61,624 nt of DNA from Calditrichota bacterium (GTDB lineage: Bacteria > Calditrichota > Calditrichia > Calditrichales > J004), in contig JAJRVW010000092.1 of NCBI GenBank assembly GCA_024277115.1, positions 1-61,624 of the forward strand, in the 5' to 3' direction. A model generated the notes under the pieces. It was given only the letters and a program-made list of their open reading frames with translations, had not been told where the DNA came from and did no database searches. This document shows, piece after piece, positions 22,727-25,159 of this stretch (positions within the stretch are counted from its first letter, which is position 1; every line of letters begins with the position of its first letter). The position numbers and the translations under genes were made by a program.

Positions 22727-23308
22727 ATGACCGAAACGAATAAAAAATTTACACTTGTTCACACGGTTATAATTATCTTAACTCTTTTGGGGCTGGACCA
22801 GCTGACAAAATACATCACAAAAACCAATATGCAGCTGGGTGATTCGATACATATTTTAGGTGATTTTTTTAGACTGACCTATGTAGAAAATCCCGGGATG
22901 GCATTTGGTTTAAGGATCGAGAATACGTTTATTTTTTTAGGCCTTTCACTGATTGCCGCCGCGCTCGTTTTTTATTATTTATATAAACTGCGCGACGAAG
23001 TATGGCAGCTTCAATTTGCCATTGCTATGATAGCCGCCGGGGCCATTGGTAATTTGTCAGATCGGTTTATTCGGGGCAGTGTAGTGGATTTTCTCGATTT
23101 CGAGTTTTTTGATATATCCATTCCTAAATTTGAATTATTGGGATTTAACTTTGCCGGATACGATATGACCCGCTGGCCAGTCTTTAATGTGGCCGATATG
23201 GCCGTTTCCGGCGGTATGATGCTTATTTTTGCTTATATCTTATTTTATGGCGACCCACTAAATAAACCTACACAGCCGTCATCAGAATCAACTACAAACC
23301 TTGGATAA
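22727..23308 (+). CDS. lspA: Lipoprotein signal peptidase (signal peptidase II)
   Basis: LspA cleaves lipoprotein signal peptides after diacylglyceryl modification at the inner membrane. The 193-residue protein has four hydrophobic spans and both catalytic-Asp motifs: GAIGNLSDRFIRGSVVDFLDF and FNVADMAVSGG. The loop between them is longer than in E. coli, as in Bacteroidetes. The N-terminal LLGLDQLTKY is also conserved. The start codon follows the DksA-like stop directly (TAAATG), and its end overlaps rluD by 8 nt. Its presence fits the several lipoproteins encoded in this window. Confidence 0.96.
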   Translation: MTETNKKFTLVHTVIIILTLLGLDQLTKYITKTNMQLGDSIHILGDFFRLTYVENPGMAFGLRIENTFIFLGLSLIAAALVFYYLYKLRDEVWQLQFAIAMIAAGAIGNLSDRFIRGSVVDFLDFEFFDISIPKFELLGFNFAGYDMTRWPVFNVADMAVSGGMMLIFAYILFYGDPLNKPTQPSSESTTNLG

Positions 23309-24284
23309 AAAAATCATTAAAATTAATGAAAAAGACGCGGAACAACGCCTGGATACATTTCTTGTAGCGCAGTTTCCGGAAAGAACACGCTCGTATTTTA
23401 CGCGGCATATTAAATTAAATAACATCCTCGTAAATAACGAAAAAGTTAAATCGGGCTATATGCTTCAGGCGGGTGATGAAATCACTTTAGAAATTGTAGA
23501 GCCCACCACCAATTTGGAACCTGCAAATATCCCTCTTGACATTGTGTTTGAAGATAAAGATATAATTGTGGTCAACAAACCTGCCGGCCTTACGGTTCAT
23601 CCCGGAAAAGGAACAGCCGGGGACACACTTGTAAATGCTTTGCTAAACCATACACAGCAGTTGGCGCTAAAAGGGCAGAGCGACAGGCCGGGAATAGTGC
23701 ACCGCCTGGATAAATACACATCAGGGCTGCTTGTTATTGCTAAAAATGACCAGGCACATAATGGTCTGCGTAAACAGTTTGATACAAAAACTATTTCACG
23801 CACATATTGGTCGTTGGTATGGGGCATGCCCAAAGAAAATACAGGCACTGTGCATACTTTTATTGATCGTAGCCGAAAAGATCCGACCAAAATGGCCGTT
23901 ACTAAAAAAGGGCGCGAGGCAATTACCCATTACGAGGTCCGCAAGGATTTTCGCTATTTTTCGCTTATTCAGCTTAAGCTGGAGACAGGCCGTACACACC
24001 AAATACGTCTGCATATGAACTGGCTGGGTTGCCCGGTTGTGGGCGATGGCGATTATAACGGGCGGGATTCACAACTTTCCCGTTTGCCGGCAAATCTTCG
24101 GAAACGTGGCCAGCATCTTTTAAGTTTGGTGCCCAACCAGTTTTTGCATGCCAAAGAATTATCATTTATTCATCCCACCTCAAACGAGATGGTAACTTTT
24201 AAAAGCCCATTGCCAACTAATCTGCAACGTGCTTTAGATAAAGTTCCTGATTTGTTTTTATTACTAGACCTGGGCAATAATTAA
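23301..24284 (+). CDS. rluD: RluD-type 23S rRNA pseudouridine synthase
   Basis: This 327-residue enzyme belongs to the RluA/RluD family that makes pseudouridines in 23S rRNA. An N-terminal S4 RNA-binding domain (about residues 14-75: RLDTFLVAQFPERTRSYFTR) precedes the catalytic domain. The active-site motif is GIVHRLDKYTSGLLVIAKND with the nucleophilic Asp, followed by GRTHQIRLHMNWLGCPVVGD. The start is TTG at 23301, overlapping lspA by 8 nt. It could be RluA- or RluC-like in target choice; the S4 domain and lspA neighbourhood favour RluD. Confidence 0.9.
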   Translation: MDKKIIKINEKDAEQRLDTFLVAQFPERTRSYFTRHIKLNNILVNNEKVKSGYMLQAGDEITLEIVEPTTNLEPANIPLDIVFEDKDIIVVNKPAGLTVHPGKGTAGDTLVNALLNHTQQLALKGQSDRPGIVHRLDKYTSGLLVIAKNDQAHNGLRKQFDTKTISRTYWSLVWGMPKENTGTVHTFIDRSRKDPTKMAVTKKGREAITHYEVRKDFRYFSLIQLKLETGRTHQIRLHMNWLGCPVVGDGDYNGRDSQLSRLPANLRKRGQHLLSLVPNQFLHAKELSFIHPTSNEMVTFKSPLPTNLQRALDKVPDLFLLLDLGNN

Positions 24285-24293
24285 TACACCTGT

Positions 24294-24540
24294 TGTGCTA
24301 ATTAGAAAGAATAGAAATAAAATAGTTTCAACTATATTCATAAAACAGGTCGCTCCGAGGGAGCTTTATGCAAGCTATGGGGATTTTTGTACTACAAATA
24401 GAACGTCCTTTCAGGACTAAATAAAAAATTCCGATAGGAATGAACTATTTGTAGAAAAAAAGGATTCTTATATTCGTAAAAGTTCCATAGGAACGTCCTG
24501 TTTTTTAAGTTTTACAAATATTTCTATTCTAATTCGCACA
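24294..24540. repeat. Nested palindromic intergenic element
   Basis: Three nested inverted repeats are visible between rluD and the converging gene. The outermost pair is TGTGCTAATTAGAA (from 24294) with TTCTAATTCGCACA (to 24540). The next is AAAACAGGTCGCTCC...GGAGCTTT (24342-24366) with AAAAGTTCC...GGAACGTCCTGTTTT (24477-24505), each itself hairpin-forming. The inner pair is CTACAAATAG (24392-24401) with CTATTTGTAG (24445-24454). Between them are further GTCCTTTCAGGAC and TTCCGATAGGAA hairpins. The structure resembles mobile REP/MITE-like elements or a structured RNA. No reading frame is present. Confidence 0.7.
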
Positions 24541-24565
24541 GTGGGTTAACAAGGCATTTTGATAA

Positions 24566-25159
24566 CTATTCAGTAAGCGTTAAATAAATATAACTGCTTA
24601 ATGCCGCAGCCGATATACCCAACATAATATTTGAATACACATCAAAATCGCGGGTTTTTGTATAATAATTATTAAGCTTTGCTAAGCTTGATGCACGTCG
24701 ATAATCCTTGTAATAATCATCCGCTTGCCGTTTTAAATAAAAAGAGAGCCAATTGGCAGCAAGAGCCGAGAGGATCAGGCTGGTTTTAAGTTTGGAGTGT
24801 TTTTGGATGGCAGGCAGATAGACACCTTTTGAGTAATCGGTTCGATTGGGAAGCTGGGAAAAAAGGGAATCCTTGACGGAACTGTTCTCAACGCTAAGTC
24901 TGTAAACCAGAGTATCGGTATTATGAATATCAAGAGTTCCTTCAACTAAAACTGTCGGCCAGCTATAAGAAATCTGTGGACGTGCTTTAAACTTATAATT
25001 ACCTTCATCCAAGCTAATTACCTCACCTGAGTCGATTGTTAAGGAATCGGCTAATTGAATGACCCATTTTTCATCACCACTAAAAATGACAAAACCTGTC
25101 TTCGTTTGGGCCAAGCAAAAGCCAATACTTAGCAAGATTATAAATAAAATTTTAATCAT
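24566..25159 (-). CDS. Hypothetical exported membrane protein
   Basis: I do not recognise this 197-residue protein. It has a signal peptide (FIILLSIGFCLAQ) and a beta-rich region (residues 20-100) with the look of a small PEGA-like domain: VISLDEGNYKFKARPQISYSWP, then VEGTLDIHNTDTLVYRLSV. Two hydrophobic segments follow, one at about 125-142 and one at 173-192 near the C-terminus, with a basic DDYYKDYRRASS stretch between them. It is the last gene of a three-gene leftward operon and overlaps the preceding lipoprotein gene by 8 nt. It likely serves the same envelope function as that protein. Confidence 0.65.
   Translation of the reverse strand: MIKILFIILLSIGFCLAQTKTGFVIFSGDEKWVIQLADSLTIDSGEVISLDEGNYKFKARPQISYSWPTVLVEGTLDIHNTDTLVYRLSVENSSVKDSLFSQLPNRTDYSKGVYLPAIQKHSKLKTSLILSALAANWLSFYLKRQADDYYKDYRRASSLAKLNNYYTKTRDFDVYSNIMLGISAAALSSYIYLTLTE

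Follow-up and report, generated by a model that had tools for sequence, protein, structure and literature searches.

We establish with confidence that the palindromic feature at positions 24288 to 24546 of the window (by which we mean the whole stretch of 61,624 nucleotides analysed here) is an old copy of an IS982-type MITE, for it is short, multi-copy, bounded by TIRs, associated with target duplications, polymorphic in presence and absence, and free of any transposase. The preliminary description had left a REP/MITE-like mobile repeat, a structured RNA and a bidirectional terminator cluster side by side; of the first reading the MITE half proved right, because there are many copies, TIRs, duplications, an empty site and, in a relative, an IS982 transposase flanked by similar ends. 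In its full form, our explanation is that of a fixed, ageing MITE of about 270 bp, mobilised by a putative IS982-type helper and built around a four-hairpin core that may act in cis, and this we consider very probable. Under this explanation, the 20-bp ends would be recognised in trans, now or formerly, by a DDE transposase of the IS982 family, which would move the element into AT-rich intergenic DNA and thereby create target duplications of 6-9 bp, and the four-hairpin core would be the cis-acting part favoured during spread.

The architecture first seen by eye, namely three concentric inverted-repeat pairs enclosing two inner hairpins, was recovered by a repeat search. The outer arms are matched (24294-24319 with 24519-24540), the second pair (24342-24367 with 24479-24504, complementarity 81%) does have a hairpin in each arm, and the third (24385-24401 with 24445-24461) encloses hairpins at 24405-24417 and 24428-24441. 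The alignment of 23 copies moves the ends of the element 6 bp beyond the noted arms on each side, to 24288 and 24546. Read from the outside inwards, the nested palindrome has 20-bp TIRs, then a pair of arms that each form a hairpin, then an inner stem with a further two hairpins, as follows:

24288-24546, no strand assigned: whole element, a 259-bp non-autonomous IS982-type MITE, as judged from the copies with both ends and from the empty site
24288-24307, plus strand: left TIR ACCTGTTGTGCTAATTAGAA, with 2 differences from ACCCGTTGTGCGAATTAGAA, fitting the IS982 consensus AC(N)6T(N)5TT
24352-24364, no strand assigned: hairpin 1 GCTCCGAGGGAGC, in an arm (24342-24367) that also forms a stem with that of hairpin 4
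24392-24401, plus strand: left arm of the inner stem CTACAAATAG, from the repeat search
24405-24417, no strand assigned: core hairpin 2 GTCCTTTCAGGAC
24428-24441, no strand assigned: core hairpin 3 ATTCCGATAGGAAT
24445-24454, plus strand: right arm of the inner stem CTATTTGTAG, from the repeat search
24482-24494, no strand assigned: hairpin 4 GTTCCATAGGAAC, in an arm (24479-24504) that also forms a stem with that of hairpin 1
24527-24546, minus strand: right TIR, with 2 differences from the family consensus, fitting the IS982 consensus

Taken together, the two arms of the inner stem show 0.022 substitutions per site across the 23 copies. Folded as RNA, the interval 24280-24560 reaches -85 kcal/mol against -49.6 (sd 4.4) for dinucleotide shuffles, which corresponds to a z of -8.1 with none of 200 shuffles as good, and the interior without its TIRs has a z of -6.4 against its shuffles. 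A mechanical hairpin search applied to the window copy chose an overlapping alternative hairpin instead of hairpin 1. At 259 bp the element is too short for a transposase, and no open reading frame of at least 80 amino acids is listed inside it. As for its surroundings, the element starts 3 bp past a pseudouridine synthase gene (23301-24284), and a converging gene on the minus strand (24566-25159), for which no NCBIfam model was matched, begins 19 bp beyond it. The synthase had been named rluD; it passes the cut-off of the RluA family, but its 240 bits fall short of the cut-off of 351 for the RluD model.

The window's genome, a draft of 4.97 Mb in 255 contigs that is 95.6% complete, yielded by blastn at least 29 matches to the element, the window copy included, when the best 40 of 89 candidates were scored. 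The genome-wide search for copies that had been recommended thus places many copies outside the window, and the sequence is not unique; among the matches listed, both by blastn and by the search for the TIR pattern, the window copy is the only one on its contig (C32), in keeping with the remark that no second full copy was seen there. At least 23 copies have both ends, with a length of 259-272 bp and TIRs of 20 bp carrying up to 5 mismatches each, and these form the set analysed below, one copy of 393 bp and five partial matches having been left out. Pairwise identity among the 23 ranges from 77 to 98.5% (mean 89%), and the window copy is 86% identical to the family consensus. With up to 3 mismatches, the end ACCCGTTGTGCGAATTAGAA has 49 matches in the genome against 2 for a reversed control, and the pattern of the inner unit has 20 sites, all of them within listed copies and none solitary at that stringency. 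In the 393-bp copy (positions 1300-1692 of contig C115), the left half was seen by eye to contain about 120 extra bases, AT-rich and partly palindromic, which may represent another small element inserted into this one.

Evidence of mobility comes from the flanks of the copies and from a relative. AT-rich target duplications of 6-9 bp, with a score of at least 6, accompany 14 of the 23 copies (13 perfect, and one 9-mer with one mismatch), whereas 2000 shuffles of the flank pairings gave 0.8 on average, with a maximum of 5; the flanks of the window copy itself contain no recognisable target duplication. A relative of the same genus has the orthologous synthase (81% identical) and the converging gene adjacent to each other without the element, an empty site that rests on one orthologous comparison. 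The same relative gave one 44-base match, by eye an AT-rich stretch beside a tRNA-like sequence, and no full copy was found in 59 other genomes, in each of which the best candidates, 12 at most, were considered.

The ends point to the family of the transposase. According to the part of the source available to us (PMC7335449), IS982 ends begin with AC and conform to the consensus AC(N)6T(N)5TT, and direct repeats, where they occur, measure 2-10 bp. This pattern is fitted by 35 of the 46 element ends, both ends of the window copy included, against 0.15% of window positions. An exact 17-base form of the TIR was then compared with 84,980 species genomes and found in 35 stretches, of which two Calditrichota assemblies account for 26 (16 and 10). 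Each stretch was scanned for paired ends, and five of the nine from elsewhere were inspected by reading; the stretches from Shewanella, Bacteroidetes GWA2_31_9, Chloroflexi and two Rhodospirillaceae held no transposase between paired ends. In Calditrichota bacterium M_MetaBat.96, a 1013-bp element has ends identical to the window TIR at 16 of 20 bases per side and encodes, in a gene split over two frames, a transposase that matches NF033520 at 181.7 bits (cut-off 130); it has no clear target duplication. A second IS982 copy in the same assembly, cut by a contig end, reaches 175.7 bits, and its single visible end agrees with the TIR at 17 of 20 bases. M_MetaBat.96 belongs to the same class as the window's genome, provided that its matching to the entry in the phylum survey holds. 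Among 40 genomes of the phylum, nine had some match to the IS982 profile and M_MetaBat.96 alone passed the cut-off.

A transposase of the M_MetaBat.96 type is, judging from these sequence likenesses, the likely helper of the window family. We speak of IS982-type ends and of an inferred helper because no IS982 transposase was found by profile and protein search in the window's draft (95.6% complete, 255 contigs), from which the helper would have been lost or in which it would be missing. In a further assembly, Zgenome_0002, nine contigs with names that start with k87 stop about 85-125 bp into one or the other of two kinds of sequence bearing the same TIR, a pattern that would arise if the assembly had been interrupted by a multi-copy element; one of these kinds resembles by eye the 3' end of the M_MetaBat.96 IS982, and profile and protein searches found no IS982 transposase in this assembly. 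Additionally, one genome of the same order shows 14 weak matches to the IS982 profile, most of them equal-scoring, at 23.5-30.7 bits (cut-off 130), and these are probably copies of another transposase family.

The other half of the REP/MITE reading would have the element as a REP/REPIN-type repeat mobilised by a Y1 (TnpA-REP/RAYT) transposase, which we regard as hardly credible. The several short hairpins and the three Y1_Tnp genes of the window's genome would suit it, but the target duplications, the IS982-type ends and the confinement of inner units, at the search stringency used, to copies of the element all argue against it. The preliminary description proposed to look for a TnpA-REP gene, and Y1 genes do exist, on contigs C35, C58 and C235, but a search of their loci found neither the TIR (with up to 5 mismatches) nor any of the four hairpins (with up to 2). 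All that turned up there was the 10-base inner arm, 2 mismatches being allowed, as is expected by chance for such a loose 10-mer. A REP identity in the strict sense, that is, a palindrome of 20-40 bp without duplication and a Y1 gene flanked by the repeat, did not agree with what was found and was rejected.

M_MetaBat.96 also harbours a MITE family of its own, about 219 bp long, with at least 15 distinct copies that have both ends. Seven of the 14 copies with usable flanks show target duplications, against a mean of 1.3 and at most 6 in 5000 shuffles; the count excludes one copy with a contig-cut flank of two bases, an artefact, and becomes 7 of 13 if two copies sharing a left flank at contig ends are one region. 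The two families are alike in a 19-bp left end and in AT-rich target duplications. By blastn at E <0.01 only the ends are common to them, over 19 bp at best, and the right end of the M_MetaBat.96 MITE departs from the window TIR at position 12 and again beyond position 16. Its hairpins are longer than those of the window family, and the median is four mechanical hairpins per copy in both. Judged from the consensus folds and hairpin counts of these two families, the nesting is alike, with ends, two mutually pairing hairpin arms, an inner stem and two hairpins; the interior of the M_MetaBat.96 MITE alone folds with a z of -7.6 against shuffles. In that genome the hairpin CTCCTGGCT-NN-AGCCAGGAG, with up to 2 mismatches, occurs at 41 sites, and each of the 15 sites inspected has two or more further features of the element (an end or a companion hairpin), some of them being truncated or contig-terminal. 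A possible occurrence of similar hairpin motifs in Bacteroidota found no support, the pattern having 0 matches in viral contigs and, in plasmids, matches of only 28-32 bases in 4 records.

We propose that the core is cis-acting because its stem and hairpin sites are kept on multi-copy branches and because the same layout recurs in the second family with an unrelated core. In the interior of the window family, paired columns differ from the consensus at 0.020 per site and unpaired columns at 0.083, and none of 230 circular shifts was as low. Mapped on a tree, changes on internal branches number 1 in 72 paired columns and 51 in 159 unpaired ones, those on terminal branches 31 and 148 in the same columns, and the internal/terminal split differs between paired and unpaired columns (Fisher p 0.003). 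In the M_MetaBat.96 family, where all 15 copies were used, internal branches carry 3 changes in 88 paired and 22 in 91 unpaired columns (p 0.016). These contrasts are partly circular, the structures being derived from the same alignments. When the fold of a single copy served as guide, the direction was kept with a smaller gap, in 22 of 23 guides for the window family (0.054 paired against 0.079, at or below 5% of shifts in 13 of 23 guides) and in 14 of 15 for the M_MetaBat.96 family (0.050 against 0.081; 7 of 15 guides). Mechanical hairpins gave 0.038 against 0.071 in the window family (14 of 23 guides at the 5% level) and 0.029 against 0.081 in the other (14 of 15 guides); the contrast is not significant when the mechanical hairpins of the window copy serve as guide (shift fraction 0.17). 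Variants confined to single copies were neither significantly rarer nor commoner in stems (27 of 72 columns) than elsewhere (76 of 159, p 0.16). On internal branches the TIRs underwent 7 changes in 40 columns, more than the paired interior with its 1 in 72, which a simple requirement of both for movement would not predict.

Compensatory changes, for which the stems were to be checked, turned out to be scarce. Although the stems are conserved, only 7 of 57 pairs have changed on both sides with pairing retained, 4 in the TIR stem and 3 in the interior. An asymmetry of wobble pairs, by which selection on RNA might be told from selection on DNA, is by eye too weak to be informative. The core could instead be passive palindromic filler with no function in cis, its stems being kept matched by polymerase template switching at quasi-palindromes, in which one arm serves as the template for correcting the other, an alternative that we take seriously but think improbable. 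It would account for the lower number of changes in stems on terminal branches too, and for the 3 interior pairs with pair-keeping double changes. On the other hand, the far-apart TIR stem lacks comparable protection (49 terminal changes in 40 columns), although distance may explain this, and correction alone would not give a second family of different sequence the same four-hairpin layout. Taken as a whole, the pattern fits constraint during spread with weaker constraint afterwards and, in part, template-switch correction as well; given the fewer terminal changes in stems, selection after insertion or a repair effect may also have contributed. The hairpin core as a cis-acting part selected for its shape is a reasonable but unproven inference from sequence comparison.

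Selection after insertion is the heart of another alternative, in which the core is a bidirectional terminator or RNA-stabilising end that makes insertions near genes tolerable, so that copies with intact hairpins survive. The interval 24200-24620 contains 4 terminator-like sites against 0.2 in shuffles, 3 of the 4 within the element, and by a simple call of open reading frames the 23 copies lie between genes, bar two that overlap, one on a weak 86-codon frame and one reaching 14 bases into the end of a frame. These observations favour the terminator, but the copies show no obvious preference for gene ends: among 21 scorable copies the neighbours are tandem in 11 cases, convergent in 6 and divergent in 4 (raw counts). 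Furthermore, the tails after the stem are mixed at all three sites in the element (GACCTGTTTT, GTTCTATTTG and GTCCTGTTTT), with no direct T-run. The earlier suggestion of a terminator cluster is in keeping with the excess of terminator-like sites over shuffles, but the copies are not concentrated between convergent genes. As an account of the core we find it unlikely, and some terminator-like activity of the element is possible from its sequence.

The structured RNA of the preliminary description would, in its strictest form, be a dedicated non-coding RNA gene repeated by happenstance. The strong fold and the conserved stems speak in its favour and leave such a reading possible in general terms, but the pair-keeping changes counted above are few, no Rfam family matched in the window at gathering scores (0), and 24200-24620 holds no sigma-70-type promoter-like site. 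The copies, moreover, are spread across many contigs with neighbours whose orientations differ (neighbour genes being compared by orientation only), and they were inserted with target duplication. A dedicated RNA gene is accordingly very unlikely, and the MITE with a putative cis-acting core remains our preferred reading.

What may be the more general lesson is put forward tentatively, as possible rather than probable: IS982-type MITEs of Calditrichota would carry a required, sequence-independent core of four hairpins, a module for transposition or persistence that is selected for shape. Descriptions of small non-autonomous elements usually centre on the ends, and bacterial MITEs are, to our knowledge, not commonly held to require a cis module in addition. 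Should the hairpin layout be needed for spread, the internal shape would matter too, and the two families would offer a natural comparison. Our results also add Calditrichota to the hosts of IS982-type MITEs. The literature searched, whose coverage mostly excludes subscription papers, contained no report of such a MITE in this phylum; a survey of insertion sequences names Calditrichae as a reservoir of IS and, in its accessible part, describes no such element (PMC9208149).

Among known systems, IS982 family members resemble the element in their ends, and differ in being 845-1282 bp long with a transposase, whereas the window element has 259 bp and none (PMC7335449, in the part available). REPs resemble it as short intergenic palindromes in many copies, but they measure 20-40 bp, as opposed to a family of about 270 bp with TIRs and target duplications (PMC3733652, available text). 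Further counterparts are MITECca01 and MITECca02 of Cardinium cOegib, which the accessible text presents as IS982-derived MITEs of about 240 bp with the ends of ISCca4, MITECca01 having 169 copies (PMC9769881). Cardinium belongs to another host group, and the parental IS resides in the same genome there, whereas none was found here (PMC9769881, same portion). That text describes palindromic inverted repeats and, as far as a comparison by description goes, no inner core of multiple hairpins (PMC9769881). Nevertheless, the Cardinium elements and the window element are alike in having no transposase gene, in their IS982 ends and in their mostly intergenic position or location in mobile elements, as far as the same source extends (PMC9769881).
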